Shown: positions 7,595 to 23,639 of the stretch, piece by piece
Position numbering within the stretch: position 1 is the first letter of the stretch
How the letters are laid out: each line of letters starts with the position of its first letter
Assembly: GCA_905182285.1 (NCBI GenBank)
Contig: CAJJAY010000007.1
Location: 1-60,824, forward strand
Direction: 5' to 3'
DNA from: an uncultured Amylibacter sp.
GTDB taxonomy: Bacteria > Pseudomonadota > Alphaproteobacteria > Rhodobacterales > Rhodobacteraceae
Length of the DNA: 60,824 bases
The notes under the pieces: generated by a model
Seen by the model: the letters and a program-made list of their open reading frames with translations, nothing else
Databases searched by the model: none
Told to the model about the DNA's origin: nothing
Position numbers and translations under genes: made by a program

Positions 7595-9181
7595 TTAGTT
7601 GAATTGGTTCATAGTGTTGTCTTCACCGGCTGCTTTTAATGCTGCTTCACCTGCAAAGTATTCTTTATGATCATCGCCAAGATCAGATCCTGACATATTT
7701 TGGTGTTTAACACAGGCTATGCCTTGGCGAATTTCTTTGCGTTGAACGCCTGACACGTAACCTAACATTCCCTCTGAACCAAAATACTCTTTAGCTAAGT
7801 TATCTGTTGATAATGCAGCTGTATGGTATGTTGGCAGAGTAATGAGGTGATGGAATATGCCAGCATCTCTTGCTGCATCAGCTTGGAAAGTTTTGATTTT
7901 TTCATCAGCGGCAATTGATAAATCTGTTTCATCATAATCAACTGACATCAAGTTTGCACGTTCATATGCAGAAACGTCTACGCCATCTTCCTGCCAGGTG
8001 TCATATACTTGCTGGCGGAAATTTAAAGTCCAGTTAAATGATGGTGAATTATTATAAACTAATTTGGCATTTGGAACAGTTTGCTTAACTCGGTTTATCA
8101 TTTCGCCAATTTGGCCAATATGTGGTTTTTCTGTTTCTATCCAGATCATATCAGCTCCATTTTGCAATGAAGTTATTGAGTCTAAAACACAACGATCTAC
8201 ACCAGTACCTTCTTTAAATTGGAAAAGATTAGATGGTAAACGTTTTGGACGCATAAGTTTGCCATCTTGTTTGATTACAACATCGCCATTACCCATTGTG
8301 TCTAGTGTTACCTCATCGCAATCAAGGAAGCTGTTATATTGATCACCTAAGTCACCAGGCTCTTTAGTTACTGCTATTTGTTTTGTTAGGCCTGCCCCAA
8401 GGCTATCAGTACGTGCAACAATTATGCCATTATCAATGCCAAGCTCTAAGAATGCATGACGGCAAGCGCGAATTTTTTGTAAGAAATCTTCATGAGGAAC
8501 AGTAACTTTACCGTCTTGATGGCCACATTGTTTTTCATCTGAAACTTGGTTCTCTATTTGTAGAGCGCAAGCACCTGCTTCAATCATTTTCTTGGCAAGT
8601 AAATATGTAGCTTCAGGATTTCCAAATCCTGCATCGATATCTGCAATTATTGGAACTACATGTGTTTCGTAATTATCAATTTTTGATTGTACATGCGATC
8701 TTGTGGCAGCATCTGGAGCTGCGTCTAGTTCTCGAAACAATCCACCTAATTCACGTGCATCTGCTTGTCTTAAAAAAGTATAAAGCTCCTCAATTAAGGC
8801 GGGAACAGATGTTTTTTCGTGCATTGATTGATCAGGTAATGGGCCAAATTCAGATCTTAGAGCTGCTATCATCCAACCTGATAAATATAGGTACTTACGT
8901 TTAGTTGTCCCAAAATGTTTTTTTATAGCAATCATTTTTTGTTGACCTATAAAGCCATGCCAACATCCAAGGGATTGTGTGTATTGTGAGCTATCTGCGT
9001 CGTATGCAGCCATGTCTTCTCTCATGATATCTGCAGTGTATTGAGCAATTTCTAAACCTGTTCTAAATCGGTTTTGCATTCTCATGCGTTGAACATGCTC
9101 TGGATTAATAGCATCCCATGAAGAACCATTTTCAGATTTTAAATTGTTTATAGTATCAAGTGATGTCCCGTCGTATGCCAT
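7595..9181 (-). CDS. aceA: Isocitrate lyase, long form
   Basis: A 528-residue isocitrate lyase, which splits isocitrate to glyoxylate and succinate as the first step of the glyoxylate shunt. The catalytic motif appears as KQCGH near residue 218, with the active-site Cys, and is followed by QDGKVTVPHEDF. IADIDAGFGN supplies metal ligands. The length and the KQCGH variant match the long subtype known from Pseudomonas and Acinetobacter rather than the 434-residue E. coli form. The ATG at 9181 has a GGGGAAAG ribosome binding site. The gene is divergent from an ScfR-type regulator, and the intergenic region carries repeated TTGTAAA boxes, so that regulator probably controls it. With acetyl-CoA synthetase elsewhere in the window it supports growth on acetate. 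Confidence 0.97.
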   Translation of the reverse strand: MAYDGTSLDTINNLKSENGSSWDAINPEHVQRMRMQNRFRTGLEIAQYTADIMREDMAAYDADSSQYTQSLGCWHGFIGQQKMIAIKKHFGTTKRKYLYLSGWMIAALRSEFGPLPDQSMHEKTSVPALIEELYTFLRQADARELGGLFRELDAAPDAATRSHVQSKIDNYETHVVPIIADIDAGFGNPEATYLLAKKMIEAGACALQIENQVSDEKQCGHQDGKVTVPHEDFLQKIRACRHAFLELGIDNGIIVARTDSLGAGLTKQIAVTKEPGDLGDQYNSFLDCDEVTLDTMGNGDVVIKQDGKLMRPKRLPSNLFQFKEGTGVDRCVLDSITSLQNGADMIWIETEKPHIGQIGEMINRVKQTVPNAKLVYNNSPSFNWTLNFRQQVYDTWQEDGVDVSAYERANLMSVDYDETDLSIAADEKIKTFQADAARDAGIFHHLITLPTYHTAALSTDNLAKEYFGSEGMLGYVSGVQRKEIRQGIACVKHQNMSGSDLGDDHKEYFAGEAALKAAGEDNTMNQFN

Positions 9182-9192
9182 TGCTTTCCCCT

Positions 9193-9386
9193 TTGTAAAA
9201 AAATTACTAAATTTTTTAGTAATTCATAGATATAATAAATCATATTCATAAACTTCTAATTTACTTGTGGATTTATTTACAAATTATTTCCATATAATAA
9301 TGGAATTTACTTGAATATTTAAAGTAATGTTGTAATAAATTGTAAAAAATACTTTGTAAAATTGTAAAGATTGTAAAGATTGTAAA
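9193..9386. promoter_or_regulatory. Repeated TTGTAAA boxes between aceA and the ScfR-type regulator
   Basis: The 205-base divergent gap holds TTGTAAA at 9193-9199, 9340-9346, 9354-9360, 9362-9368, 9371-9377 and 9380-9386, and its complement TTTACAA at 9276-9282. The last three copies are spaced exactly 9 bases apart and run into the start codon of the regulator gene at 9387, where no clear Shine-Dalgarno is seen. The copy at 9193 is 12 bases upstream of aceA. A 10-bp inverted repeat (AATTACTAAA, 9202-9211 and 9215-9224) lies in the aceA leader. These are candidate operators for the adjacent regulator, inferred from position and from recurrence at the second ScfR locus. Confidence 0.7.
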
Positions 9387-10793
9387 ATGAATATTCAGAA
9401 AATATTTGCTGGGCCAAGAATTAAAAAAATCCGAAATTCGATTGGATTAAGTCAAAGTGCTATGGCAAATGAATTAAATATCTCTCCAAGCTATTTGAAC
9501 TTAATAGAACGAAATCAACGCCCTATTACGGTTCAATTAATACTGAAACTATCAAAAACTTATAATATATCCCCTGAAGAATTAGAGGGAGATGCAGATG
9601 GAACTGTATCTGCTCTTAAAGAAGTATTCTCTGATTCTTTACTTCAAGGAGAATTACCTGGATATGAAGAGCTTTTCGAAGTTGCCGACATAGCGCCAAA
9701 TGTTGCAAGTGGTATTAAAAAGCTGCATGAGGGATATAGGCAAGCCTTACAAAGACTTTCAGAGCTTAATGCAGGCATGACGGAAGGACTAGATGTTAGC
9801 CAAACTGCTTTACCGACAGACTTAGTTCAGAGTGCAATGGAAAGTAGAGATAATTACTATGATAATTTGGATCGTGCAGCTGAAAAATTAGCGTCAGAAT
9901 TAGACTTAGGCAGCGGTATGTTTGCGGCCCTTCAGGATAGGCTATTAAAAAATCATCGTATTACAGTGCAAACACTTCCAATAAATACAATGCCAGAATG
10001 GACACGAAGGTTTGATAAGCATTCAATGCGATTATTTATATCAGACAGACTAAATTCGTATGGTCGTGTTACTGAGCTTGCATGTTATTTAGTTAATTGT
10101 GAGTTGAGGAGTGAAATTGATAATGCAGTATTGAGATTAAATTTGAAATCCACTGAAGCAATTAAAGCTGGTATAATTGAATTAATGAATTATGCGGCTT
10201 TGGCTTTGCTATTGCCTTATAAACGTTTTTTCCAAACATCGCAGAGAATGAAATATGATGTAGAGGCTATTGCAAAAAGATTTGATGTTTCTTTTGGAGA
10301 AGTTGCATATCGAATGACCACCTTAAGTAGAAAGGAAATGGAAGGGATTCCATTCTTTCTTCAAGAAGTTGATCAAGCAGGGAATAAAGTTCGAAGATTA
10401 GGTTCAAGGGGTTACCCAAAAAATACATTTGGTGGGCAGTGTCCAAAGCTATCGATATTTAAAGCAGTTTCTCTACCTCAACAACTCCTCACTCAAATCG
10501 TAGAAAGTCCAGATGGCCAAGCATATTTCACATTAAACCGTTCAACTAAGCAAAGTGGAGGAGCTTATGGCGAAAATATGCGCCAAACTGCTATCATGCT
10601 AGCATGTGAAGCTGAATTTATAACTGACATGATATATGCATCAGGGGGTGCTGTTGATCGTGCGGATGTTGGTCAAAACTGTCGTTTATGTGAACGGCCT
10701 CATTGTGCTCAAAGGGCTGAACCACCTATTGCTAGGCCCATGATGTTTGATGGTGCAGAAAATAGTATTTCAGCATTTAATTTTAAGGTTTAA
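9387..10793 (+). CDS. XRE-family short-chain acyl-CoA regulator (ScfR/RamB-like) of the glyoxylate shunt
   Basis: A 468-residue transcription regulator. An XRE helix-turn-helix occupies about residues 10-65 (IKKIRNSIGLSQSAMANELNISPSYLNLIERN). A long central region follows with the IrrE/DUF955-like and DUF2083-type arrangement of short-chain fatty acyl-CoA regulators, ending in a Cys-rich tail with NCRLCERPHCAQR. Relatives such as RamB and PccR respond to acyl-CoA or acetate status. It is divergent from aceA and faces repeated TTGTAAA boxes that abut its own start, which suggests control of aceA and autoregulation. Its stop overlaps the converging permease gene by 4 bases. A second, shorter homologue lies at 14929-16221. 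Confidence 0.9.
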   Translation: MNIQKIFAGPRIKKIRNSIGLSQSAMANELNISPSYLNLIERNQRPITVQLILKLSKTYNISPEELEGDADGTVSALKEVFSDSLLQGELPGYEELFEVADIAPNVASGIKKLHEGYRQALQRLSELNAGMTEGLDVSQTALPTDLVQSAMESRDNYYDNLDRAAEKLASELDLGSGMFAALQDRLLKNHRITVQTLPINTMPEWTRRFDKHSMRLFISDRLNSYGRVTELACYLVNCELRSEIDNAVLRLNLKSTEAIKAGIIELMNYAALALLLPYKRFFQTSQRMKYDVEAIAKRFDVSFGEVAYRMTTLSRKEMEGIPFFLQEVDQAGNKVRRLGSRGYPKNTFGGQCPKLSIFKAVSLPQQLLTQIVESPDGQAYFTLNRSTKQSGGAYGENMRQTAIMLACEAEFITDMIYASGGAVDRADVGQNCRLCERPHCAQRAEPPIARPMMFDGAENSISAFNFKV

Positions 10794-11542
10794 TTATATA
10801 AATATGATCGGCGAATTAAATCTAAACCCATAATCAGAAATAAAACTAAAATAAATTTTTTGAAAACTATTTCTGACATTTTATTTCGAATTTTTTCACC
10901 TAACCAAAAACCTACAAATGTAGGCAGTAATAGAAAAATTGATAATATTGATAATTCTTTATTTAAGTGACCTTGTGCCAGATAGGCAAGCAAAAGTGGT
11001 ATAGATCCAATAAAAAATATTAAGCCACTTACACGCACAAACTCTTCTTTTGGTATGCGTCTTGCCGCTAAATAGATTGCCAATGGAGGTGCCCAAACAG
11101 AAGTTAACCCTCCCATAACGCCAGCAAAAAAACCAGATATAATCTGAGCTTTTTGGTCATGCTGAATTGGAATAAATGGAGCATTTTTAAAAATGTTTGC
11201 AATTACAAATAATAAAACTGAAGCGCCTAAAAAACCTATTAAAATATTATCGCTTACTTCGGTTGTTTTATTTACTGTTAGCCATACAAATATTATTAAC
11301 ATAAAAATAAACGTGAAATATTTTTTAAACGTTGGGTATATATTTCCTGAACGATAAATCTGCCAAGCATTTGTAAAAATTAGAGGAAATATTAATAATG
11401 CAATTGCCATTCTTGGAGCGATTGTAATGGTCATTAAGCCCATTGCAGCTGTTGGCAAACCTAAACCTGCTGCACCCTTTATTATACCTGCTAATAAAAA
11501 AATTGAGGAAAGTAACAAAATAAAAAATATTTGATCTGTCAA
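10790..11542 (-). CDS. TSUP-family permease (TauE/SafE-like)
   Basis: A 250-residue membrane protein with about eight hydrophobic segments and the duplicated glycine-rich motif of the TSUP family (LAGIIKGAAGLGLPTAAMG near the N-terminus and FFAGVMGGLTSVWAPPLAIYL in the middle). Family members export or import sulfite, sulfoacetate and other small organic anions. It is the last gene of a minus-strand run that includes the sensor kinase, 45 bases downstream of it. A carboxylate or sulfonate cargo is possible, but the substrate cannot be deduced. Family assignment is good. Confidence 0.85.
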   Translation of the reverse strand: MTDQIFFILLLSSIFLLAGIIKGAAGLGLPTAAMGLMTITIAPRMAIALLIFPLIFTNAWQIYRSGNIYPTFKKYFTFIFMLIIFVWLTVNKTTEVSDNILIGFLGASVLLFVIANIFKNAPFIPIQHDQKAQIISGFFAGVMGGLTSVWAPPLAIYLAARRIPKEEFVRVSGLIFFIGSIPLLLAYLAQGHLNKELSILSIFLLLPTFVGFWLGEKIRNKMSEIVFKKFILVLFLIMGLDLIRRSYLYN

Positions 11543-11587
11543 AACAAACTTCTATGAAATGCAAACATAAGATACCTTAAAATAAAA

Positions 11588-14248
11588 TTAATTTAATGGT
11601 ATCTGAACTTGAAATTTAGCGCCAGCTTTACTTTCCAAACATAATAATGACCCACCTAAATTTTTCATAATTTCTTTACTAATAGCAAGGCCAAGGCCAA
11701 CGCCACTCGAATTTTCTGTGGAGGATAATTTTGTGAATTTTTCAAATATTATGGCGCGTTCAGCTTTGGGTATACCTGGTCCATTATCTTGGAAAGTAAT
11801 ACACAATTTATTATTAATTTTTTCACAATTGATTTCTATTAAAGGTTGATTTTTATCATTATATTTTATTGCATTAGTAATTAAATTTATAAAGACTTGA
11901 GATAAACGGTCAGCATCTGTTTGAATCTCTGTCTTATTTAAATCTATATTAGTTTCTAATATTGCATTTGAGATTGAAATTGTTTGTTGTGTTGATTGGA
12001 GTGCAATTTCCAGTACATTATTTAACTCTATTTTTGAAATGTTCAGTTTAACTTGACCACTTTCTAAAAAGCTTAAATCTAATATCTCATCTAGTAGTCG
12101 TGTTAAACGTTTGCTCTCATCATTTATAATCGTAGAAAAGTATTTTAATTGATCTTTTTCTAATTCTTTATTTGATTGCAATATTTCTGAAAAGGATCGG
12201 ATTGAAGTCATTGGTGTTCTTAATTCATGACTCACATGACTTAAAAATTCATCTTTTTGAGTGCTTAATTTTGTAAGTTTATTATTGGCAATTCTAAGTT
12301 CATTTGCTGCTTTTGTTAATTCTTTTGATTGCTCCTCTAGCCGTGCTGAATATTCAATTACTTGAACTGTCTCATCTGCTACTGCAATCAAGTCTTCAAC
12401 AGTTATTGATTGATTGCCTACAGCTTGAGTTATCATCGAGTGAGCTGTTGCGGCTCCAACAGAGCCTGCAAATTTTTGTTCCAATGTCTCCATCAGTTCT
12501 ATATTTATTTCAGGCAAACCTTTTTGGCCTTGTTTATCTGAAAACTTATCAAACAGGATTTGAGCATCTTTTCTACCTAGAATACGTTGTGCAAGTATGA
12601 ATAAATCATCTGGAGTAACGCCATCTCCAACGGATCTTATATTTGATTTTTGCCCATAAACATTAATAAATTTTTGTCCTTGCAATCTTTCAAGAGGAGA
12701 GGGCGTGGAGGTAAGAGAAATAATAATAAAAACTAATGCGTTTAAGAAAATAGACCAAAAAACTGCATGTGTTAACGGGTCATTAATGCTTATCCCAAAC
12801 AAAGCTTGAGGCCTAAGCAAAGAAATACCAAATGGACCATGATTTAATATATCAGAACTGAGAATAAATTCACCGCCAAAGCTTGGTAGAAAAGATGAAT
12901 AAACCCATATGATAAAACCAGTGGAGATTCCAAAAATAGCACCCTTTCGAGTTGCATTTCGCCAAAATAATGCACCTATTAAAGCCGGTAGTACTTGTGC
13001 AACTCCTAAAAAAGCAATCAATCCAATAGAAGCAAGTGCTGTGGTGCCGCCAGTAAGGATGTAATAGAGATATCCAAAGCCAATAATACAAGCAATACTG
13101 AAACGCCTTGAACGTAAAAGAACTGTTCGGACATCGTCACTTTCAGGGTTTCTTTTTTGAACAGCATAAAGCCACAAAGGTAAAACTATATGATTTGATG
13201 CCATGGTTGATAATGCAATCGCTGCAACAATTACCATTGATGTAGCGGAAGAAAAACCGCCAAGAAATGCTAAAGCTGCTAACATCCCTTGATTTTCTGC
13301 AAGTGGAATTGTTAAAACAAATAAATCTGGATTAGATCCTTCAGGCAAGATATTTAATCCAGTGGCTGCAATAGGTAAAACAAAAATACACATTAATAAT
13401 AGGTAAAGTGGGAATGCCCAACTTGCAGTTGCTAGATGCTTTTCTGCGCTATTCTCAACGACAATGACCTGAAACATTCGTGGTAAACAGATTATAGCTG
13501 TAGCGGACAAAAATGTTAAAGTTACCCATCTTGGTGAAAAAACTTTATCCGTAACGGGAATATTTTTTTCCATAAGATTTAGTATACTAGATGGACCATC
13601 ACTGAGCCCCCACACTACAAAAATCCCTACAGATATAAATGCAACGAGTTTAACAATTGCCTCCAATGCAATAGCAGTTACAACACCATGATGTCTTTCA
13701 TTAGCATCCAAATTTCGTGTTCCAAACAGTATCGTAAATAATGCAAGTCCAGCTGCAATAAATAATGCTGCAATAGCGGAGCTATACTCTGTGTTGGAAT
13801 TTTCTGTAAAAACAGCAAAACTTAATGTTAAAGATTGTAATTGAAGAGCTATATAAGGAGTGGAGCCAAAAATTGCTAACAAGGTGACAATTACACCTAG
13901 AGTGTTACTTTTGCCGTAGCGAGATGATATTAGATCAGCAATTGATGTTATTCTTTGGGTTCTACCGATACGCACTAATTTTCTTAAAAACCACCACCAA
14001 CCAACAAATACAATTGTTGGCCCTAGATATATTGCTAAAAATTCAAATCCATTAAGAGCTGCAGAGCCCACAGATCCATAAAAAGTCCAGGCTGTACAGT
14101 AGACTGAGATAGAAAGAGTATAAATCAAAGGCGATTGTAAAAAGCCTAATTTACTTTGACGAGCGCGGCGTTCAGCAAGCCCAGCAACTGCGAAAAGAAA
14201 ACCAACGTATATCAAACATATTATTACAATTACATTTGAGCTTAACAT
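11588..14248 (-). CDS. Sodium:solute symporter-STAC-histidine kinase fusion, CrbS-like sensor
   Basis: An 886-residue sensor with an SLC5-type symporter domain of about 13 membrane segments (residues about 1-515). A STAC-like linker follows (about 545-630, with AQRILGRKDAQ and FAGSVGAATAHSM), then a coiled coil and a histidine kinase core. The H-box is FLSHVSHELRTP with the phospho-His near residue 674, the N-box LITNAIKYND is near 790, and DNGPGI and GVGLGLAI follow. No receiver domain or clear PAS domain is fused. In CrbS relatives this architecture controls acetyl-CoA synthetase expression. Here the receiver is a separate gene three positions earlier on the same strand, and acs lies in the opposite unit. 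The start overlaps the stop of the upstream small gene by 1 base. Confidence 0.92.
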   Translation of the reverse strand: MLSSNVIVIICLIYVGFLFAVAGLAERRARQSKLGFLQSPLIYTLSISVYCTAWTFYGSVGSAALNGFEFLAIYLGPTIVFVGWWWFLRKLVRIGRTQRITSIADLISSRYGKSNTLGVIVTLLAIFGSTPYIALQLQSLTLSFAVFTENSNTEYSSAIAALFIAAGLALFTILFGTRNLDANERHHGVVTAIALEAIVKLVAFISVGIFVVWGLSDGPSSILNLMEKNIPVTDKVFSPRWVTLTFLSATAIICLPRMFQVIVVENSAEKHLATASWAFPLYLLLMCIFVLPIAATGLNILPEGSNPDLFVLTIPLAENQGMLAALAFLGGFSSATSMVIVAAIALSTMASNHIVLPLWLYAVQKRNPESDDVRTVLLRSRRFSIACIIGFGYLYYILTGGTTALASIGLIAFLGVAQVLPALIGALFWRNATRKGAIFGISTGFIIWVYSSFLPSFGGEFILSSDILNHGPFGISLLRPQALFGISINDPLTHAVFWSIFLNALVFIIISLTSTPSPLERLQGQKFINVYGQKSNIRSVGDGVTPDDLFILAQRILGRKDAQILFDKFSDKQGQKGLPEINIELMETLEQKFAGSVGAATAHSMITQAVGNQSITVEDLIAVADETVQVIEYSARLEEQSKELTKAANELRIANNKLTKLSTQKDEFLSHVSHELRTPMTSIRSFSEILQSNKELEKDQLKYFSTIINDESKRLTRLLDEILDLSFLESGQVKLNISKIELNNVLEIALQSTQQTISISNAILETNIDLNKTEIQTDADRLSQVFINLITNAIKYNDKNQPLIEINCEKINNKLCITFQDNGPGIPKAERAIIFEKFTKLSSTENSSGVGLGLAISKEIMKNLGGSLLCLESKAGAKFQVQIPLN

Positions 14249-14499
14249 TAATCAGTATCCAGATCATTTTTAAGCAATTTTGCCATTATAAATGCTAATA
14301 TTATAAATATTCCCCACGCACCAAATATATAAAAAATTACAGATGTGAAATTAACCTTTTCTAAATTTCCAGTGAAGCCATTTAATAAAGGAGAAACAAG
14401 TAAACAAATAGCTAAAATTGGAATGCCGAGGGAAAGTTCAGTAATTTTACGCAACTTTCGTCTTTTAACATCACGTTCTGCACTTGAACTTTTATTCAT
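14248..14499 (-). CDS. Small two-helix membrane protein between receiver and symporter-kinase
   Basis: An 83-residue protein with a charged N-terminus (KRRKLRK), two hydrophobic segments at about residues 25-42 and 52-74, and an acidic tail. Its start overlaps the response regulator stop by 4 bases and its end abuts the sensor start, so translation is probably coupled. Acetate symporters of the SLC5 type often have a small two-helix partner upstream (DUF485 or DUF4212 proteins). This may be the equivalent partner of the symporter domain in the sensor. That is inferred from size, topology and position; I cannot assign it to either family by sequence. Confidence 0.8.
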   Translation of the reverse strand: MNKSSSAERDVKRRKLRKITELSLGIPILAICLLVSPLLNGFTGNLEKVNFTSVIFYIFGAWGIFIILAFIMAKLLKNDLDTD

Positions 14500-14864
14500 A
14501 ATTTTAACATGTGTTTTATTTGTTGTATCAATTCAGCATTATCAAATGGTTTTGTCATAAACTCATTTACACCAGCGTCTTCAGCGGCTCTTCGATCTTT
14601 TTTTTGTCCTTTGGCAGTTAACATTAAAACAGGTAATTCAGCTATTAATTTTGTTGACCGAATATCTTCAAGAATTTTCATACCACTTACGTTTGGAAGC
14701 ATAATATCTAGTATTACAAGGTCTGGATTGGTGTCTTTTACAAATTCTATTGCTTTAGCGCCGTCTGAAATTGATTTTACTATAAAGCCTTCTTTTTCTA
14801 AAATAAAAGACAGTGCTTCTATGATAAATGGTTCGTCTTCAATGATTGTTATCGTTTTTTTCAC
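14496..14864 (-). CDS. Stand-alone response regulator receiver (CheY-like)
   Basis: A 122-residue single-domain receiver. The acidic pocket is Glu9-Asp10, the phosphoacceptor is Asp53 in VILDIMLPN, Thr83 lies in MLTAK and the conserved Lys is Lys105 in MTKPFD. No output domain follows, so it must act by protein contact or as a phosphate sink. It lies 65 bases downstream of the ScfR-type regulator gene and directly upstream of the small membrane protein and the histidine kinase, which is its likely phosphodonor. In CrbS/CrbR systems the regulator carries a LuxR-type DNA-binding domain, which is absent here. Confidence 0.93.
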   Translation of the reverse strand: MKKTITIIEDEPFIIEALSFILEKEGFIVKSISDGAKAIEFVKDTNPDLVILDIMLPNVSGMKILEDIRSTKLIAELPVLMLTAKGQKKDRRAAEDAGVNEFMTKPFDNAELIQQIKHMLKL

Positions 14865-14928
14865 GTCTTTCTCCCCAAAGGATGTGAAACACTATCCTAA
14901 CCTAAATCAATAATGGTGCAATTTATTT

Positions 14929-16221
14929 TTAACTTAACAGGTATGAAGCCCTACGAGAGTTGCAATCTAATCTTGAACATACAGTACATTGATGGCCAAC
15001 ATCTAGTTGAGGTGTTTGATCATATGCTATCTTTGGTAGCATATTATAATCAGTTGTAAAAAGCATTATGGCTTCTGTTAGAGCAGGCATACCCACTCGA
15101 GCTGCCTCGGTTGGATAAGCAAAGCTGATGGTATGAAAGCGATCACCCATTGGCATATCTAGCATTGCTCGAATGGGCTGAAGCGGTTGTGATAAGCTTC
15201 TATAAACTGGCCATAATGGGCATGCACCCCCATATCGAGGTAAACTAAATGAATTTAGTTGTTTACGATACAAAACCATTCCTGATGCATCACATTGTAT
15301 CAATCCAAATTGAGGTATATCTTTACCGATAGGTAAATGAGCCAATCTAAAGCATATCGAGAGTATATCAGTATTAAAGTGATTGGCTAATGAAATTGCA
15401 TCATATTTATATTCAAAAGCTGTATCTAAGAATAATTTAATTGGAAGATTTTGAGCCATTTTCATATAGGAATTTAATGAACTCTTAGTTTTAATTATTT
15501 CATCTGGAGATAAAGTTAATGATGATAAAACTTGATCAACATTTTTTTTACCATTTTCTAAATCATCAATGTAATATTTATTTTTTTCTAATAAAGCTTC
15601 GAATGGAGATATGTCGAAGGAAGTTACTTGTTGTTCTGATGTGGGTTCAAAATAATCAAAAATATCTTCTGCTGTTTTTGATAACTTTAAAGATTCTTTT
15701 GCTAAGTTATCAATAAAATTTTTAGCGATTTTTTCGGACATTTTAGGATTGGAAGCTAATATATCAGCTGTAGATCTTATTGTTGTAATATTAGATAATA
15801 AAAGATGCATCGCTTCTGCAAAATAGGGATCATTTTTTAATTGATCTGAAAGCACAGCAAACTCTTCATCTCTAATATTTATTTGATCACTTTGTCTTGC
15901 TATTAGTCTAGCAAAGCCAGGAAATCGGGCGGAAAACTCTTCTATTCTATCATCTTCAGTTTTAATTTTTTTATTACGCAAAGCTGCTGTTTTTACGCGA
16001 TCTATGAGGTCTTGATTCATTCCATCAGATAACTCTGATGGTTCGACTTTTAAGGCTCTAGCGATTGTGTTTAAAGTTTTGCCTGCGATTCTTCGTCGAT
16101 TATGTTCTATTAGATTCAAATACGATGCAGAAATGCCAGCAGCATGAGCTAAATCTTTTTGGCTAAGACGTAAAGCTTTCCTATTTTCCCTAATACGAGT
16201 TCCTAAAAGAGCACCCACCAT
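14929..16221 (-). CDS. Second XRE-family short-chain acyl-CoA regulator (ScfR-like)
   Basis: A 430-residue regulator with an XRE helix-turn-helix at about residues 8-62 (LGTRIRENRKALRLSQKDLA). The tail has CTVCSRLDC, matching the Cys pattern of the 468-residue homologue at 9387. The middle (KLFLDTAFEYKYDAISLANHFN) resembles the DUF955/IrrE-like part of such regulators. It is the first gene of a minus-strand run with the receiver, small membrane protein and symporter-kinase, and is divergent from the ABC importer-acs unit. A perfect palindrome containing TTGTAAA half-sites begins 29 bases upstream of its start. It probably regulates both directions; the effector is presumably an acyl-CoA, by family analogy. 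Confidence 0.88.
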   Translation of the reverse strand: MVGALLGTRIRENRKALRLSQKDLAHAAGISASYLNLIEHNRRRIAGKTLNTIARALKVEPSELSDGMNQDLIDRVKTAALRNKKIKTEDDRIEEFSARFPGFARLIARQSDQINIRDEEFAVLSDQLKNDPYFAEAMHLLLSNITTIRSTADILASNPKMSEKIAKNFIDNLAKESLKLSKTAEDIFDYFEPTSEQQVTSFDISPFEALLEKNKYYIDDLENGKKNVDQVLSSLTLSPDEIIKTKSSLNSYMKMAQNLPIKLFLDTAFEYKYDAISLANHFNTDILSICFRLAHLPIGKDIPQFGLIQCDASGMVLYRKQLNSFSLPRYGGACPLWPVYRSLSQPLQPIRAMLDMPMGDRFHTISFAYPTEAARVGMPALTEAIMLFTTDYNMLPKIAYDQTPQLDVGHQCTVCSRLDCNSRRASYLLS

Positions 16222-16249
16222 TTTCTAAGACCTTAATTTTTAACGTTTT

Positions 16250-16287
16250 ATATAGTATATTGTAAATTAGTTTACAATATACTATAT
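16250..16287. promoter_or_regulatory. Perfect 17-bp-arm palindrome, candidate ScfR operator
   Basis: An uninterrupted inverted repeat with arms 16250-16266 and 16271-16287 and spacer TTAG. The core is TTGTAAATTAGTTTACAA at 16260-16277. It lies 29 bases upstream of the minus-strand regulator and 147 bases upstream of the ABC binding-protein gene. Its half-site TTGTAAA is the one repeated at the aceA/regulator divergence. From memory, PccR of Rhodobacter sphaeroides, an ScfR member, recognises TTTGCAAA half-sites with a 4-base spacer; this site has the same layout with one substituted position per half. Confidence 0.82.
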
Positions 16288-16410
16288 GAAAAATAAAAAA
16301 GATTTACATAATAATCGTTTATAAACAATGAGTTGTTGAAAAAATTACATTTTAAGATAAAAGTTAATTGTCTAAATGACACTGGCGAGAATTACGAGGA
16401 GGTAATTTCC

Positions 16411-16461
16411 GTGCAGAAACAGGGAGGAAATCTATGTCTAAGTTTACAAGACGTGGGCTAA
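16411..16461 (+). CDS. Possible 16-codon upstream ORF overlapping the binding-protein start
   Basis: A GTG at 16411 stands 7 bases after AGGAGGT (16397-16403), the best Shine-Dalgarno sequence in this region, and opens a 16-residue frame (VQKQGGNLCLSLQDVG) ending at TAA 16459-16461. The frame covers the Shine-Dalgarno (AGGGAGGAAA, 16421-16430) and start (16434) of the binding-protein gene in another frame. It may modulate translation of that gene, or be fortuitous. No peptide similarity supports it. Confidence 0.35.
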   Translation: MQKQGGNLCLSLQDVG

Positions 16462-17771
16462 TAAAAACCAGTGCAACAGTTGGTGCTGGTTTGGCAATGC
16501 CTACTTTTATTACAAGTCCATTGGCTGCATATACAAATGCACCCACAGGCGGTTCAGTTACACTGGGCTTTAATGTTCCACAATCTGGTCCATATGCGGA
16601 TGAGGGTGCGGATGAGTTGCGTGCATACAAGTTAGCTGTAGAGCATTTAAATGGTGGCGGTGATGGCGGTATGATGAATACCTTCTCATCTAAATCTCTT
16701 ACTGGGAATGGTATTCTTGGTAAAAAAGTTGAATATGTAACTGGTGATACCCAAACAAAGTCTGATGCCGCTAGAGCTTCAGCAAAATCAATGATAGAAA
16801 AAGATGGCGCTGTAATGATTACTGGTGGTTCTTCTTCAGGTGTTGCAATTGCTGTTCAAGGTTTATGTCAAGAAGCTGGTGTCATATTTATGGCTGGTTT
16901 GACGCACTCAAATGATACAACTGGAAAAGATAAGAAAGCTAATGGTTTCCGCCATTTCTTTAACGGGTACATGTCAGGAGCTGCTTTAGCACCTGTTCTA
17001 GAAGCACGTTATGGTAAAGATCGTAATGCTTATCATTTAACCGCAGACTATACATGGGGATGGACACAGCAAGAATCTATTCAAGCTGCAACAGAAGCAA
17101 AAGGTTGGAACACAGTAAACAATGTACTTACGCCATTAGCTACTACAGATTTCTCATCTTATGTTGCTCCAGTATTAAATTCTGGTGCTGATGTTCTAGT
17201 GCTTAACCACTACGGTGGAAACATGATCAATTCATTAACATCAGCAGTTCAATTTGGACTACGTGATAAAATGGTTAATGGAAAGAATTTTGAAATTGTT
17301 GTTCCATTGTATTCACGCCTTATGGCTCGTGGTGCTGGTGAAAATGTTAAAGGCATATTTGGCTCTACAAACTGGCATTGGTCACTTTCAGATGAAGGTT
17401 CAAAAGCATTTGTAAAATCATTTGGTACTAAATATGGCTTCCCACCATCACAGGCTGCGCATACAACATATGTTCAAACGTTATTGTATGCAGATGCGTG
17501 TGAACGTTCTGGCACATTTAACCCTTGTGGTGTTTCTGAAGCTTTAGAAGGCTTTAAATTTGATGGTATGGGTAATGGTCCAACTGAGTATCGCGCGGAA
17601 GATCACCAATGTTTCAAAGATGTGCTAGTTGTTAAGGGTAAAGAAAACCCAACATCAGAATTCGATGTACTAGAAGTTGTGGAAATCACGCCTCGTAGCC
17701 AAGTTGAATATGCTGTTGATCACCCAATGTTTGCGGGTGGTGCTTTAGGAAAATGTAACCCAGGCGCATAA
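16434..17771 (+). CDS. ABC transporter substrate-binding protein, branched-chain/urea type, with Tat-type signal
   Basis: A 445-residue periplasmic binding protein of the Leu/Ile/Val-type (Peripla_BP_6) family. The N-terminus has a twin-arginine signal (TRRGLIKTSATVGAG) and a cleavage region near PLAA, suggesting export in folded form. A NVPQSGPYADEG segment opens the mature domain. It is followed by two permeases, two ATPases and acetyl-CoA synthetase in one direction, and is divergent from an ScfR-type regulator. The operon context suggests a short-chain carboxylate or a precursor as ligand rather than an amino acid; this is inference. A hairpin follows the stop codon. Confidence 0.92.
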   Translation: MSKFTRRGLIKTSATVGAGLAMPTFITSPLAAYTNAPTGGSVTLGFNVPQSGPYADEGADELRAYKLAVEHLNGGGDGGMMNTFSSKSLTGNGILGKKVEYVTGDTQTKSDAARASAKSMIEKDGAVMITGGSSSGVAIAVQGLCQEAGVIFMAGLTHSNDTTGKDKKANGFRHFFNGYMSGAALAPVLEARYGKDRNAYHLTADYTWGWTQQESIQAATEAKGWNTVNNVLTPLATTDFSSYVAPVLNSGADVLVLNHYGGNMINSLTSAVQFGLRDKMVNGKNFEIVVPLYSRLMARGAGENVKGIFGSTNWHWSLSDEGSKAFVKSFGTKYGFPPSQAAHTTYVQTLLYADACERSGTFNPCGVSEALEGFKFDGMGNGPTEYRAEDHQCFKDVLVVKGKENPTSEFDVLEVVEITPRSQVEYAVDHPMFAGGALGKCNPGA

Positions 17772-17793
17772 AATAATTTATATAATTAGATAT

Positions 17794-17821
17794 TAGGCCA
17801 CAGTGTTTTCACTGTGGCCTA
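17794..17821 (+). terminator. Hairpin after the ABC binding-protein gene
   Basis: A 12-bp perfect stem (TAGGCCACAGTG at 17794-17805 with CACTGTGGCCTA at 17810-17821), loop TTTT, followed by a short T run (TTTC). It lies 22 bases after the binding-protein stop and before the permease genes, and is best read as an attenuating terminator or mRNA stabiliser that gives more binding protein than membrane subunits. Confidence 0.85.
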
Positions 17822-17870
17822 TTTCAAAAGTTAAGTTAAACTAGCTAAGTTAATAAAGTTTGGACGAAAC

Positions 17871-18908
17871 ATGGATGCAATTCTTTTACAAATACTAAAT
17901 GGACTTGATAAAGGCAGCGCATATGCACTGATTGCTTTAGGTCTAACTTTAATTTTTGGTACATTAGGAGTGGTTAATTTTGCCCACGGTGCGCTATTTA
18001 TGTTAGGAGCTTTTTGTGCAGTTTCATTGCAAAAATTAGTAGCTGTATCAAAAATTACAATTGATCCATCTCAAGTAGATTTTTTAGGAAATCCTCTTAA
18101 AGTCAAAACCCCATACGTTATAGAATGGTTTGGGCCAAAAATAGGCAATGCAATCATAGATTGGAATGTTCCATTAGCGATTATAATCGCAATACCTGTA
18201 ATGTTATTAATTGGGTACGTTATGGAAAGAGGTTTAATAAAGCACTTTTATAAACGCCCCCATGCTGACCAGATATTAGTAACCTTTGGATTGGCTATTG
18301 TAATTCAAGAGCTTGTTAAGGCAAATTTTGGAGCAAATCCCATTCCCACTCCTGCACCAGATCAGTTCGTAGGATCATTTAATGTAGGAGCATTAATTGG
18401 TCTCGATGCAAGTTATCCATACTGGCGGTTAATTTATTTTGCATTTTCTGCTCTAATCATAAGTTCTGTGTTTGCTTTTTTAAGATTTACGACATTTGGG
18501 ATGGTCGTTAGAGCTGGCATGGCTGATCGTGAAACAGTTGGGCTTCTGGGTATCAATATCGATCGTCGCTTTACTATAATGTTTGGAATTGCTGCTGCGG
18601 TCGCTGGGTTAGCAGGGGTAATGTACACCCCCATTAATTCCCCAAATTATCACATGGGAATGGACTTTCTAGTTTTATCTTTTGTTGTCGTTGTTGTCGG
18701 TGGAATGGGTTCTCTTCCTGGAGCTGTCTCCGCTGGGTTCCTTTTGGGTATTCTTGAAAGTTTTGCTTCAATGAATGAAGTAAAAGGTTTCTTTGAAATG
18801 CTATATCTTCCGTCTATTGACCAGATTATAATTTACCTAGTCGCCATTATTGTATTGCTTACCAGACCACGTGGTCTGATGGGTAAAGCTGGCGTGATGG
18901 AGGAATAA
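17871..18908 (+). CDS. ABC transporter permease, LivH type
   Basis: A 345-residue inner-membrane permease of the branched-chain amino acid/urea type with about 8-9 membrane segments. It opens with the characteristic [23 protein letters not shown] and has the [12 protein letters not shown] segment. The coupling region appears at [22 protein letters not shown] near residue 205. An extra hydrophilic stretch at about residues 55-95 ([18 protein letters not shown]) follows the second segment. It is separated from the binding-protein gene by a hairpin and followed 1 base later by the LivM-type partner. Confidence 0.92.
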
Positions 18909-18909
18909 A

Positions 18910-20112
18910 ATGAATACTATTTCAAAAGCAGATATGAAAACTTTATTTTTCGTTGCAATAATAGCATTATTAGCACCTTTTATACTAAATCCGTTTCCAA
19001 CAGATTCAGGATTAGCGCAATTTAATGCAGGCTATCCTGATTTGATGCAGCGTTTTGCTATATATGGAATTTTAGCAATTGGTTTTAACATATTATTTGG
19101 ATTGACAGGCTACCTTTCATTTGGACATGCAGCATTCTTGGGTGTTGGATCTTATTCAGCAGTTTGGATGTTTAAATTGCTATCAATGAATATTATTCCT
19201 GCATTAATTCTATCAGTTATTGTTGCGGGTCTGTTCTCACTACTTATTGGTTTTATATCTCTACGTAGATCTGGTATTTATTTTTCAATTTTAACACTAG
19301 CCTTTGCACAGATGAGTTTTGCTTTAGCTTATTCTGTACTGACACCATTAACGAATGGTGAAACAGGGTTACAAATTACTTTAAATGATCCTCGCATTCT
19401 GGCTGCAGAAAATGTTTCTGGGAATTTACCTGTAACAACATTGTTTGGTTTAGAGATGAGGGACACTTGGGCAATGCAAGTTGGTGCGTGGGATTTTCAA
19501 TTTAATATTGGATATTACATATGTGCTATATTTTTACTATTAGCATTTTATTTATCAATACGTATTTTTCGTTCGCCTTTCGGTATGATGTTGCGAGCTG
19601 TTAAAACAAACCAAAACCGTCTTAACTATACTGGAATAAATACTAGACCATATACTTTAGCTGCATTTGTGATTTCGGGAATGTATGCGGGTTTAGCTGG
19701 GGGCTTAATGGCATCTATGGATCCTTTAGCCGGAGCAGAGCGCATGCAATGGACTGCTTCTGGTGAAATAGTATTAATGACAATACTTGGAGGAACGGGA
19801 ACTCTTTTAGGCCCTGTTATGGGTGCCGGTTTTATTAAATACTTTGAGAATATTTTTTCAAAAATTAATGATACTGTCCTTCATGGATGGTTCTCATGGA
19901 TGCCTGATGGCTTGGAAAATATTATAGTATGGGTGCTACATTTATTTACTGGTAAGGGATGGCATTTAACATTGGGTATAATGTTTATGTTGATTGTGAT
20001 TTTTCTGCCAGGTGGATTAATGGAAGGAATGTCACGAATTGGCAATTGGTGGAAACGCCGTAAAGGTGACGATGACGCTGAGTCAAAATCCACTACTACA
20101 GCTGCAGAATAG
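18910..20112 (+). CDS. ABC transporter permease, LivM type
   Basis: A 400-residue permease, partner of the LivH-type subunit. The conserved [19 protein letters not shown] lies at about residues 63-81, the [14 protein letters not shown] segment near 125, and the coupling region [21 protein letters not shown] near 222. The C-terminal tail is charged ([12 protein letters not shown]). It starts 1 base after the preceding stop and is followed 9 bases later by the first ATPase gene, so all are translated from one message. Confidence 0.93.
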
Positions 20113-20121
20113 GAGCGCCAG

Positions 20122-20901
20122 ATGGGAATTCTTGAAGTCCAAAATGTAAATAAAAGTTTTGGTGGTTTAAAAGCTTTACACAATGTTAACTTAGATATTG
20201 AAGAAGGCAAAATCCATGCAATAATTGGTCCTAATGGTGCTGGTAAATCAACTCTTCTAAACTGCTTTGTTGGAAAGCTAACGCCTGACACAGGTACAGT
20301 AATGTTTGATGGGCACTCATTACTTGGAATAAAACCTTATGAAATAAATCAACTTGGTGTTAGTCGTGTTTTCCAAACACCTGAAATTTTCTCAGAACTT
20401 TCAGTCTGGGAAAATACATTAATACCGTGCTTTGCAAAAAGAGATGGGTCATTCACTTTAAATGCTCTTAGTAGAGTTTCTGATAATAAAGATATGGCAG
20501 AAAAAGCAGAAAAAATGCTGGTTGATGTAGATCTTATAAATAAAAAAGACATGTTAGCCTCTTCAATGTCACGTGGCGACAAGCGGCGCTTAGAAATGGC
20601 AATGTGCCTCTCGCAAAATCCAAAATTATTGTTATTGGATGAGCCTACTGCTGGTATGGCACGAGCAGATACTGAGAGCACTATTGAATTATTGAAAAGT
20701 ATTCAAAAAAAGTTAAAAATTACCATGGCTATAATCGAGCATGATATGGGTGTGGTTTTTTCATTAGCTCAAAAAATATCCGTACTTGCACAAGGTACCG
20801 TAATTGTTGAGGACATTCCTGAAAATATAAAAGGCCACCCAAAGGTAAAAGAAGCATACCTTGGTGAAGCTCAAGTAGAAGGCAATATGAGAGATGATTA
20901 A
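20122..20901 (+). CDS. ABC transporter ATP-binding protein, LivG type
   Basis: A 259-residue ATPase with Walker A GPNGAGKST near residues 36-44, Q-loop region VFQTPEIFSELSVWEN, Walker B LLLLDEPTAGM and the H-loop His in IIEHDMGVV. The signature motif is MSRGDKRRLEMA, a departure from LSGGQ in which both glycines are not kept. Such variants occur in this subfamily, and the partner ATPase has an intact signature. It overlaps the LivF-type gene by 8 bases. It energises the LivH/LivM-type channel at the cytoplasmic face. Confidence 0.92.
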   Translation: MGILEVQNVNKSFGGLKALHNVNLDIEEGKIHAIIGPNGAGKSTLLNCFVGKLTPDTGTVMFDGHSLLGIKPYEINQLGVSRVFQTPEIFSELSVWENTLIPCFAKRDGSFTLNALSRVSDNKDMAEKAEKMLVDVDLINKKDMLASSMSRGDKRRLEMAMCLSQNPKLLLLDEPTAGMARADTESTIELLKSIQKKLKITMAIIEHDMGVVFSLAQKISVLAQGTVIVEDIPENIKGHPKVKEAYLGEAQVEGNMRDD

Positions 20902-21634
20902 CACGCCAGATAATTCAGAGCCATCGCGGCCAATATATTTCTCAGCACATGATATTCATGCTTACTATGGGGAAAGTTATATTGTTCAAGGGATTTCTTT
21001 AAATGTGCATGAAGGAGAAATTTTAGCTCTTTTGGGTCGAAATGGGGCAGGTAAGACTTCAACTTTGCGGGCGATAGCCCGTTTAGATGATCCTGCTATT
21101 CATAAAGGTGAGATATGGCTGGACCATCAACCTTTACATAATATGAAAGCTTGGGAAGCTGCCCAAGCTGGTATCGCGTTAGTTCCAGAAGACCGAAGAG
21201 TTATCCAAGGTTTAACTGTTGAAGAAAATTTACAATTAGCTCAAATTGAAAAACCTATCGGCTGGTCATTAGAAAGAATTTATGAATTATTTCCGCGTTT
21301 AGGTGAACGTAGAAAACAAGAAGGAACAACGTTGTCTGGGGGAGAGCAACAAATGCTTGCGATTGGGCGAGCACTTGCACGTGATATTAAATTGTTACTT
21401 TTAGACGAACCATATGAAGGTCTTGCACCTGTAATTGTTCAGGAAATTGAAAAAACTTTAAGGCTTATTCGTGAGCAAGGCATCACAACTATAATTGTAG
21501 AACAAAATGCTGTTGCAGCATTAAAACTGGCAGATCGTGCAGTCATTCTTGATACTGGTGGAGTTGTGTTTTCTGGTACTGCAAAAGAGGTCTTGGAAAA
21601 TGAGAAACTTCGCCATGATTATTTGGCAATTTAG
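20894..21634 (+). CDS. ABC transporter ATP-binding protein, LivF type
   Basis: A 246-residue ATPase, second of the pair. Walker A is GRNGAGKTST near residues 45-54, the signature LSGGEQQMLAIGRAL is intact, Walker B is LLLLDEPYEGLAP and the H-loop analogue lies in IIVEQNAVAA, with Asn in place of His as is common for LivF. An N-terminal extension of about 14 residues (NTPDNSEPSRPIYF) precedes the domain. It is the last transporter gene and is 67 bases upstream of acs, which probably shares its transcript. Confidence 0.92.
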   Translation: MINTPDNSEPSRPIYFSAHDIHAYYGESYIVQGISLNVHEGEILALLGRNGAGKTSTLRAIARLDDPAIHKGEIWLDHQPLHNMKAWEAAQAGIALVPEDRRVIQGLTVEENLQLAQIEKPIGWSLERIYELFPRLGERRKQEGTTLSGGEQQMLAIGRALARDIKLLLLDEPYEGLAPVIVQEIEKTLRLIREQGITTIIVEQNAVAALKLADRAVILDTGGVVFSGTAKEVLENEKLRHDYLAI

Positions 21635-21701
21635 AGAACTGATGTAACATATAAAAAAATTCACTGAATAGGAAAAGTTTTTAACTTTAAAAGGGAAGAG
21701 T

Positions 21702-23639
21702 ATGAGCGATAAAATATTTCCACCATCCTCCGAGTTTTCAGAAAAAGCTCACGCAAATAAAGAAAAGTATGATAGGATGTATGCTGCGTCTGTTTCTAAT
21801 CCAGATATATTTTGGGCTGAACATGGAAAGCGAATTGATTGGATAACTCCTTTTACGAAAGTAAAAAATACTTCGTTCGAATATCCAAATATATCAATCA
21901 AATGGTATGAAGACGGTGAGCTAAATGTGTGCGAAAATTGTGTTGATCGACATCTCCCTAAACGTGGCAATCAGACTGCAATAATTTGGGAATCTGATGA
22001 CCCAAATATAGATAAACATATTACATATAATAAATTACACGACTATGTTTCTCGATTGGCAAACGTATATAAGTCATTGGGTGTAGGAAAAGGTGATAGA
22101 GTTATCCTGTATATGCCAATGATACCTGAGGCTGCATATGCTATGTTGGCATGTGCTAGAATTGGTGCAATTCATTCTATAGTTTTTGGTGGTTTTTCAC
22201 CAGATGCTTTAGCTTCTAGAATCTCTGATTGTAAAGCTTCTTTGGTTGTAACAGCAGATGAAGGCCCGCGTGGAGGTAAAAATATACCACTCAAAAAAAA
22301 TGTTGATGCGGCTTTAGAGATATGTGGTGATGTTAAAACTTTAGTTGTTGCTAGAACTGGAAACAGTACTCCTTTTGTAGAAAACCGTGATTATGATTAT
22401 GATGAGTTAATTGCTGTGGCATCAAATGATTGCCCTGTAGAAAAAATGAATGCTGAAGATCCTCTTTTTATTCTATATACTTCTGGCTCTACTGGAAAAC
22501 CTAAGGGTGTAGTACATTCCTCTGCTGGATATTTAGTATATGCTTCCATGACGCATCAATATACTTTTGATTACCAAGAAGGGGACACATACTGGTGTAC
22601 AGCAGATGTAGGCTGGATAACGGGGCACTCTTATATTGTATATGGGCCATTGGCTAATGGTGCGACAACTTTGATGTTCGAAGGTACCCCGACATACCCA
22701 GATGCATCACGTTTTTGGGCTGTTTGTGAGAAACACAAAGTAAACCAGTTCTATACTGCACCAACCGCAATTCGAGCTTTAATGGGTTTGGGAGATGATT
22801 TAGTAACAAAGCATAACTTATCTGATTTACGTGTGCTTGGAACTGTTGGTGAGCCAATAAACCCTGAAGCCTGGAATTGGTACAATGAGGTTGTGGGTGG
22901 GGGTAATGTTCCTATTGTCGACACATGGTGGCAGACAGAAACTGGTGGACATATGATGACACCACTTCCTGGCGCTACTGCTACAAAGCCCGGATCTGCT
23001 ACGAACCCATTTTTTGGGGTGCAGCCCGTAATTTTAGATCCACAAACAGGCCAAGAAATTGATGGAGCATGCGAAGGTGTTCTTGCAATTAAGGAAAGCT
23101 GGCCATCCCAAATGAGAACAGTTTATGGTGACCACGATCGCTTTGTAAAAACTTACTTTGAGGCATATAAAGGTTACTACTTCACTGAAGATGGCTGTAA
23201 ACGTGATGAAGATGGTTACTATTGGATAACTGGGCGAGTGGATGATGTCTTGAATGTATCTGGTCACCGAATGGGAACTGCAGAAATTGAGAGTGCGTTG
23301 GTTGCACACAAAGATGTAGCTGAAGCTGCAGTTGTTGGATATCCACATGAAGTTAAAGGCCAAGGAATTTATTGCTATGTGACTCTCAATGCGAATGCAG
23401 AATACACTGAAGAACTGCGGATTGCTTTAAGAGGATGGGTGCGCCAGCAGATAGGACCAATTGCTAGTCCTGATTATATCCAGTGGGCACCTGGTTTACC
23501 TAAAACAAGGTCAGGTAAAATAATGAGACGAATATTGAGAAAAGTTGCTGAGAATGATTATAATTCATTGGGTGACATATCTACTTTAGCTGAGCCAGAA
23601 GTTGTAGAAAAGCTTATTGAAAATCGTATGCATCGCTAA
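21702..23639 (+). CDS. acs: Acetyl-CoA synthetase (AMP-forming)
   Basis: A 645-residue acyl-CoA synthetase converting acetate, ATP and CoA to acetyl-CoA, AMP and pyrophosphate. The P-loop [16 protein letters not shown] is near residue 265, WWQTETGG near 410, the hinge region [18 protein letters not shown] near 515, and the acetylatable Lys motif [11 protein letters not shown] near 605. Trp in WWQTETGG is the residue that restricts the acyl pocket to acetate in known Acs enzymes, so acetate is the probable substrate. A good ribosome binding site (AAGGGAAGAG) precedes the ATG. Its position after the ABC importer and opposite the CrbS-like sensor links uptake, sensing and activation of acetate. 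Confidence 0.96.

Follow-up and report, generated by a model that had tools for sequence, protein, structure and literature searches.

How a receiver domain without an output domain of its own could pass a signal to DNA is the question raised by a signalling locus of an uncultured Amylibacter sp. (GenBank assembly GCA_905182285.1, contig CAJJAY010000007.1, positions 1 to 60,824). We refer to this whole stretch of 60,824 nucleotides, the DNA that was analysed, as the window. It belongs to a genome of 1.9 Mb in 56 contigs that is 84% complete; its GC content is 34-39% along its length, and its nearest named relatives are mostly Rhodobacteraceae. Genes for an ScfR-family regulator, a lone receiver, a small membrane protein and an SLC5-type histidine kinase follow one another on the minus strand, and face a divergent ATP-binding cassette (ABC) importer followed by an acetyl-coenzyme A (acetyl-CoA) synthetase gene (acs). 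We propose, at about even odds (a probability of roughly 0.5), that kinase, lone receiver and ScfR form a three-protein line, with phosphotransfer to His139 in a domain of ScfR that resembles the dimerization and histidine phosphotransfer (DHp) domain of kinases, and that this line would control the importer and its own operon. The signalling genes are as follows.

14929-16221, minus strand: ScfR-family regulator, 430 amino acids, with HTH_3 at residues 10-64, a DHp-like hairpin at about 124-192 (His139) and the ScfRs C-terminal domain at 302-425
15646-15852, minus strand: region coding for the DHp-like hairpin (ScfR residues 124-192), with the His139 codon at 15805-15807
14496-14864, minus strand: lone receiver, 122 amino acids, GTG start, full Response_reg match, with D10, D53, T83 and K105
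14248-14499, minus strand: membrane protein of 83 amino acids with two hydrophobic stretches, CbrX-like by position and form only
11588-14248, minus strand: SLC5 (probably SLC5-STAC) histidine kinase, 886 amino acids, with HisKA at 664-731 (His674) and HATPase at 778-885, without a C-terminal receiver

The domain on which the proposal turns is a DHp-like (HisKA-like) hairpin at residues ~124-192 of ScfR, between an N-terminal helix-turn-helix (HTH) domain (HTH_3, 48.7 bits) and the C-terminal ScfRs domain (65.8 bits), both of which score above their cut-offs. Alignment of the whole ScfR profile with the whole kinase profile (hhalign) placed ScfR residues 36-189 on kinase residues 584-724 (P 96.8, E 2.9e-10) and paired His139 with the phospho-accepting His674 of the kinase. 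When a profile of the DHp region from 53 sequences was compared with the PDB, rows 1-5 of 14 were HK853 chains (best E 0.0017) with the histidine in register, and the sixth was an unrelated exosome protein (E 0.037). Pfam HisKA matched 25 of the 53 member sequences (best 1.1e-8) and the next family matched five. A single-chain AlphaFold2 model of ScfR, with a mean predicted local distance difference test score (pLDDT) of 90.3, shows a hairpin of two helices, 132-157 (which holds His139) and 163-191. Since a domain scan found no catalytic ATP-binding domain in ScfR, the protein is not a kinase.

His139 is a histidine in all 81 aligned relatives, where it is among the few invariant residues of the DHp-like segment, and in 103 of 106 ScfRs, a set made up of those 81 and 25 of 29 other ScfRs found (four RamB-like proteins without the domain were left out). 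The next residue is E or D in 74/81 and varies outside that set. The fourth residue after the histidine is S or T in 100 of 104 ScfRs. The motif HxxxT/N is the phosphatase motif of HisKA kinases, and HxxxS/T at His139 fits the HisKA phosphatases; ScfR might thus be a phosphatase or sink for a receiver that has another target. We think this highly improbable, since no other conserved target gene was seen beside the receiver, and since ScfR possesses a DNA-binding domain and its promoter carries a conserved paired box.

The arrangement of ScfR, receiver and kinase is not a product of chance. We compared the best 80 of 577 confirmed matches of one genome scan; these loci are selected and mutually related, mostly from Rhodobacteraceae, and many are cut by contig ends or by the limits of the fetched stretch. 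ScfR, receiver and kinase lie on one strand in 74 of the 80, two have only the receiver, and four have neither; in 74/80 the small membrane protein is also present, completing the set of four. A synteny survey, which the initial annotation had suggested along with the notion that linkage might prove unconserved, therefore finds the genes conserved together; contrary to what the annotation had implied, the gene set is widespread and not special to this window. Of 394 sampled genomes of the family, 353 carry a kinase relative (E <= 1e-100, kinase types pooled).

Sampling more widely, we searched 289 genomes of the taxonomic class, found an SLC5 kinase in 65 of them (70 matches), and sorted the 69 fetched stretches outside the window into two groups. 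In class A (31 loci) the kinase has 1101-1318 amino acids and its own C-terminal receiver, and a receiver-LuxR gene lies beside it in 24/31, an arrangement known from CrbS/CrbR. In class B (38 loci and the window) the kinase open reading frame (ORF) has 893-992 amino acids in the 38, without a receiver, and a lone receiver lies within the stretch in 37 of the 38. ScfRs of the DHp type occur in at least 34 of the 289 genomes, and among the matches listed all 34 are inside the 39 class-B genomes; none was found in the 31 class-A loci. This search used a single query, so that distant cases could be missed. Outside class B, three listed matches span the domain region (G200, G207 and G246), and all are without a DHp-like domain. 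At one of the 31 class-A loci (L199), the same ABC importer stands beside a CrbS-type hybrid kinase and a LuxR regulator.

Is the ScfR segment related to kinases in general, or to the partner kinase? A profile of the ScfR DHp segment scored a median of 40.9 bits against partner kinases of the first set (73 of 75) and 45.3 bits against those of class B (38 of 38). A better control than the CrbS-type hybrids considered below was a panel of 38 HisKA kinases from six genomes, comprising 3 partner kinases and 35 others. The profile gave 43.7-47.1 bits for the three partner kinases; the best of the 35 others was the PhoR-like kinase of the window's genome (24.1 bits), followed by one at 17.1 bits, while Pfam HisKA scores of these 35 reach 89.8. 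When the profile was built from 22 ScfRs outside the family, kinases of the family were still found at a median of 45.4 bits. We also built a tree of 26 ScfR segments, 26 partner-kinase DHps (26 of the 104 sets) and the 35 other kinases, leaving out class-A kinases. ScfR and partner-kinase DHps form one clade apart from the 35 other kinases (52/52, support 0.912); within it, the ScfRs are a clade (26/26, 0.969) and the partner kinases partly so (22/26, 0.904). It is likely that the ScfR domain descends from the DHp of the partner kinase, and likely rather than proven because the stretch is short and class-A kinases are outside the tree.

Other parts of ScfR suggest how the domain may have come to be there. 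Its cluster cysteines, C334 and C412-X2-C415-X4-C420, stand at the positions seen in PrpR and are invariant in 81/81 aligned relatives; all four are kept in 33/34 ScfRs of the class sample. Scanning detected no IrrE/M78 domain in three short ScfRs (window, L031 and L093); the domain was partial and under the cut-off in L009, and present in five longer ScfRs (L007, L015, L017, L018 and L028), whose order of domains is HTH, DHp-like, M78, ScfRs. From this order, the DHp-like domain probably entered between HTH and M78; M78 probably shrank later in Rhodobacteraceae, while the iron-sulphur (Fe-S) cysteines stayed. The same features could be read differently: the DHp-like segment might be a mere dimerization element of old kinase origin, in which case ScfR would act, as RamB and PrpR do, through acyl-CoA and its Fe-S cluster, and the receiver would have its effect elsewhere. 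The conserved cysteines of the PrpR type fit such an account, as does the reported binding of CoA esters by RamB and PrpR. We nevertheless consider it unlikely, because the IrrE/M78 part of the CoA pocket is undetected in the short ScfRs, DHp-ScfR was seen only in genomes with a non-hybrid kinase (among the matches listed), and a mere spacer would not need His139.

As for the receiver, the 122-residue protein has a full Response_reg match and no output domain follows it, which bears out the view of the initial annotation that it lacks a DNA-binding part. D10, D53 and K105 are present in 104 of 104 receivers, and position 83 is T in 97 and S in 7. In a receiver tree, 45 of 45 lone receivers (31 from class B, 13 of 77 from the first set and one next to an unlinked ScfR) cluster with three more lone receivers (support 0.933), whereas hybrid receivers (31/31) form another clade; the lone-receiver clade is separate also from LuxR receivers. 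We had considered that the lone receiver might have broken away from the C-terminus of a hybrid CrbS, and the tree does not support this. In one genome (G001, locus L203) ScfR lies apart from the kinase and has a lone receiver of its own adjoining it.

The real partner of the kinase could be a DNA-binding response regulator encoded at another place in the genome, and the initial annotation had named such a regulator as something that would refute its reading. The genome yielded eight HisKA kinases and eleven receivers (ALTERNATIVES). No fitting second regulator was found, in a genome that is 84% complete and whose missing part may hold a CrbR; in the stretches read, the regulators without an adjoining kinase, besides the lone receiver, are two PhoB-like (C37 and C44), one PetR-like (C12) and one LuxR-type (C10), the names being our own reading. 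Only one PhoR-like kinase (C26) was seen, and these orphans leave some room for the alternative. This incomplete genome yielded no CrbR-like (LuxR-type) regulator whose receiver is intact: C10, which alone among LuxR-type regulators passes the cut-off, lacks the phosphorylation-site Asp as judged by eye, and the remaining regulators resemble ordinary ones that belong to other systems. Moreover, a lone receiver is present in 37/38 fetched class-B loci, and a receiver-LuxR gene as well in only one of the 38 (L157). That the kinase has such a partner thus seems to us extremely improbable. As to their surroundings, C10 (L121, 4865-5533) sits among metabolic genes with no kinase nearby, C37 and C44 lie in L123 and L124, and C12 adjoins a MarR gene.

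The kinase itself is probably of the SLC5-STAC type, as the initial annotation had it. Residues 7-459 match the solved SLC5-STAC part of CbrA (phmmer, 10ed_A, E 1.1e-73), and Foldseek of the kinase model retrieved SGLT1/2. The model (mean pLDDT 78.4) shows a transporter, short helices at the place expected for STAC and an HK853-like kinase core; HisKA and HATPase_c both score above the Pfam cut-off, and the protein ends with HATPase_c. The SLC5 part and the kinase core of the earlier claim are thus borne out, and the STAC part itself is unproven: four short helices follow the transporter at 546-610 in the model, and the 10ed match stops at 459. The gene for the small membrane protein shares 4 bases with the receiver gene and 1 with the kinase gene; in all 74 loci examined, a small ORF ends <=60 bases from the kinase start. 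Against solved chains, the small protein gave no useful match (best E 8.8).

What the line would control is suggested by the divergent genes and by the gap between them and ScfR. Every gene that the initial annotation had named, in the minus-strand run and in the plus-strand importer and acs unit, was found where it had been placed.

16271-16308, plus strand: paired box TTTACA-N26-TTTACA in the divergent promoter, predicted ScfR operator
16434-17771, plus strand: substrate-binding protein (Peripla_BP_6) of the divergent importer
17871-18908, plus strand: LivH/UrtB-like permease of the ABC importer
18910-20112, plus strand: LivM/UrtC-like permease of the ABC importer
20122-20901, plus strand: LivG/UrtD-like ATPase of the ABC importer
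20894-21634, plus strand: LivF/UrtE-like ATPase of the ABC importer
21702-23639, plus strand: acetyl-CoA synthetase (acs), behind the importer genes
10790-11542, minus strand: TSUP (TauE) permease, directly behind the kinase gene

TTTACA pairs at exactly 32 bp (~three helical turns) occur in 41 of 81 regions upstream of ScfR, and in 200 mononucleotide shuffles no box distance occurred more than once. Outside that set, scanning the whole length, we found the paired box at 9 of 43 loci of the class-B type and at none of the 31 class-A loci. A search of the window's genome returned two sites, of which the second falls within a coding gene; as a reversed control also gave two, the box pattern taken by itself does not reach significance in a single genome. 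According to one study (PMC10370305), ScfR sites commonly have paired near-identical boxes, and we predict from the conserved pairs that this box is the ScfR operator.

A divergent substrate-binding protein is adjacent in 53/80 related loci, and acs lies on the strand of the importer in 27/80. Among the matches listed, a substrate-binding protein of >50% identity faces ScfR in 29 of the 33 class-sample loci with DHp-ScfR besides the window; L153, L155, L159 and L161 have ScfR without one. The importer faces ScfR also in all four loci with the kinase elsewhere (L200-L203). This arrangement points to the importer as the target of ScfR. By analogy, acetate may be both signal and importer cargo, which we infer because acs is linked and the kinase is related to CrbS. 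The TSUP permease, which the initial annotation counted in the run, does lie behind the kinase gene and is ruled out as part of the module: it occurs in 0/80 related loci, and the same-genus locus L266 has no TSUP match of >45% identity. It is probably a late neighbour of the kinase gene.

The window holds a second ScfR, which is RamB-like (9387-10793, plus strand) and divergent from isocitrate lyase (7595-9181, minus strand); its HTH, IrrE/M78 and ScfRs domains are all matched. A run of TTTACA boxes at 9341-9377 on the minus strand lies in the gap between the two genes and is perhaps the operator of the RamB-like ScfR.

Several observations weigh against the proposal that the lone receiver acts through the DHp-like domain of ScfR. 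Taken singly, the DHp segment of the window has a Pfam HisKA E value of 0.079 and 13.5 bits, against a cut-off of 26.9, and those of L015 (15.3 bits) and L028 (24.4 bits) also fall below it; annotation of single sequences would therefore miss the domain. Foldseek of the full ScfR model gave no kinase in the best 50 rows, where PrpR and HTH proteins lead, and a structure search of a viral library with the same model returned mainly HTH proteins. The proline that stands at the fifth position after the histidine in the kinase is absent from ScfR. CrbS-type hybrids, on which the ScfR-DHp profile has a median of -1.2 bits (30 of 31 reported), are a weak control of kinship because the class-B HisKA profile missed their DHp. 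Mean-field direct coupling analysis of ScfR DHp, receiver and kinase DHp in 104 sets (effective 72) returned mostly variable loop positions for the kinase-receiver control, so that its ScfR-receiver result is uninformative; at equal DHp positions, summed identity was 18.09 within genomes and 17.24 across genomes, a small difference. The exact 32-bp pair is absent from 40/81 upstream regions. Among the matches listed, DHp-ScfR was not found in 5 of the 39 class-B genomes (G051, G056, G087, G131 and G233). One class-B locus (L133, genome G080) has ScfR, the small protein and the kinase without a receiver beside the kinase, a lone-receiver-like ORF being found elsewhere (C141), and in L160, L166, L169 and L170 the lone receiver is further off. 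Finally, His139 has been lost in two lineages that keep the domain and intact receivers: among the 34 listed ScfRs of the class sample, position 139 is H in 29, F in 3 (one genus) and Q in 2 (another genus).

These losses bear on a further explanation, docking without transfer, by which the phosphorylated receiver would bind the DHp-like domain of ScfR and alter its shape or oligomer state, with His139 an unphosphorylated part of the interface. It is the main rival, because besides the two lineages without His139, four class-B loci (L159, L160, L169 and L170) encode a membrane protein whose DHp-like segment, read by eye, seems to lack the histidine. We hold it to be possible, if doubtful. The invariance of His139 in the aligned relatives speaks against it, as does the position of ScfR in both His-less lineages, 7-8 kb away or on another contig from the kinase-receiver pair, although two other separated ScfRs (L202 and L203) retain the histidine. 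The natural variants with the domain but without His139 (Q in L200 and L201; F in L158, L163 and L165) could separate docking from transfer. In our own reading, the four membrane proteins (L160, 10191-12512; L169, 11026-13104; L170, 5214-7796; L159, 3435-5546) consist of a PAS-like part, the DHp-like segment and a DnaQ-type exonuclease-like end; they lie near class-B kinases and lone receivers, and three of the four loci are without DHp-ScfR.

We return to the three-protein line. The SLC5-type kinase, which has no attached receiver, would phosphorylate the lone receiver, and the receiver would bind the DHp-like domain inside ScfR; since that domain is akin to the DHp of the kinase, the face used by the receiver could be the same on kinase and ScfR. 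The phosphoryl group would then most likely pass from Asp53 of the receiver to His139 of ScfR (His to Asp to His), phosphorylation would change the binding of ScfR at the paired TTTACA boxes, and ScfR would thereby switch the divergent importer, with acs here, and its own signalling operon. The initial annotation had suggested a phosphorelay that acts on ScfR or on another protein; the ScfR part gains support from the domain akin to that of the kinase. More broadly, and with somewhat less than even confidence, we suggest that ScfR captured the DHp of its own kinase, or shares it by descent, and stands at the end of a His-Asp-His relay as its phosphohistidine acceptor, with the receiver as the shuttle and ScfR as the DNA binder; such a design would be frequent in Rhodobacteraceae and occur here and there elsewhere in the class.

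Single-domain receivers are widespread, and what they act on is often unknown; here a probable target is visible in the sequence, because ScfR carries a relative of the docking domain of the kinase. The proposal suggests a route by which a receiver without a DNA-binding part might pass a signal to DNA, and offers a rule for other systems, namely to look for the DHp of a kinase inside a transcription factor. If it is true, a ligand-sensing regulator has been rewired to two-component input: scans of the short ScfRs no longer pick up the acyl-CoA part, while the DHp-like domain has stayed. The circuit would then be one for control of acetate use in a large bacterial family, in most sampled genomes of which the kinase has a relative.

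SLC5-STAC systems, ScfR regulators and phosphorelays are each known; a kinase-related DHp in a transcription factor is a combination that we did not find described. No description of a DHp or HisKA domain in ScfR was found in the literature, searched mainly in its open-access part, and this absence is weak evidence. CrbS/CrbR of Pseudomonas, Vibrio and Sinorhizobium likewise has an SLC5 sensor kinase tied to acetate use and acs. Its kinase is reported to be a hybrid and its regulator to be of the LuxR type (PMC9100948, PMC5715377), whereas here the kinase is non-hybrid, the receiver stands alone and ScfR has a DHp-like domain. The system of the window, which the initial annotation had called CrbS-like, is rather a sister of that type, with no hybrid receiver and no linked LuxR-type partner.

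In the CbrX-CbrA-CbrB system of Pseudomonas, CbrA is homologous to the N-terminus of our kinase (10ed), and CbrX is reported to be encoded by a small overlapping gene and, as a two-helix protein, to sit on the SLC5 domain of CbrA (PMC6591292, PMC13022988); the small two-helix gene here overlaps the kinase start in the same way. CbrB is reported as a receiver-AAA+-HTH regulator, and none such is in the unit of the window. With RamB, PccR and PrpR/MccR, the window's ScfR has in common the HTH and ScfRs C-terminal domains, four cluster cysteines (as in PrpR) and paired direct boxes. PrpR is reported to bind CoA and to have an IrrE-like part, and RamB to bind CoA esters; the ScfR of the window has a DHp-like domain, and an IrrE-like part was undetected in it. 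Pden_1785 of Paracoccus denitrificans, a protein of the ScfR network beside a two-component system, is mentioned without study in PMC10370305; we can only guess that it is of the same ScfR type.

ChpT is reported to use a kinase-like DHp fold for phosphotransfer with response regulators, and is a separate protein, whereas the domain of the window sits in a transcription factor. Unlike in ChpT and Spo0B, no catalytic-like domain follows the DHp-like domain of the window's ScfR. Spo0B too is a separate protein that uses a kinase-like DHp fold in phosphotransfer with response regulators. Transcription factors with PRD domains are controlled by histidine phosphorylation, with another fold and with phosphate that comes from the phosphotransferase system (PTS) and not, as we propose for ScfR, from a receiver.

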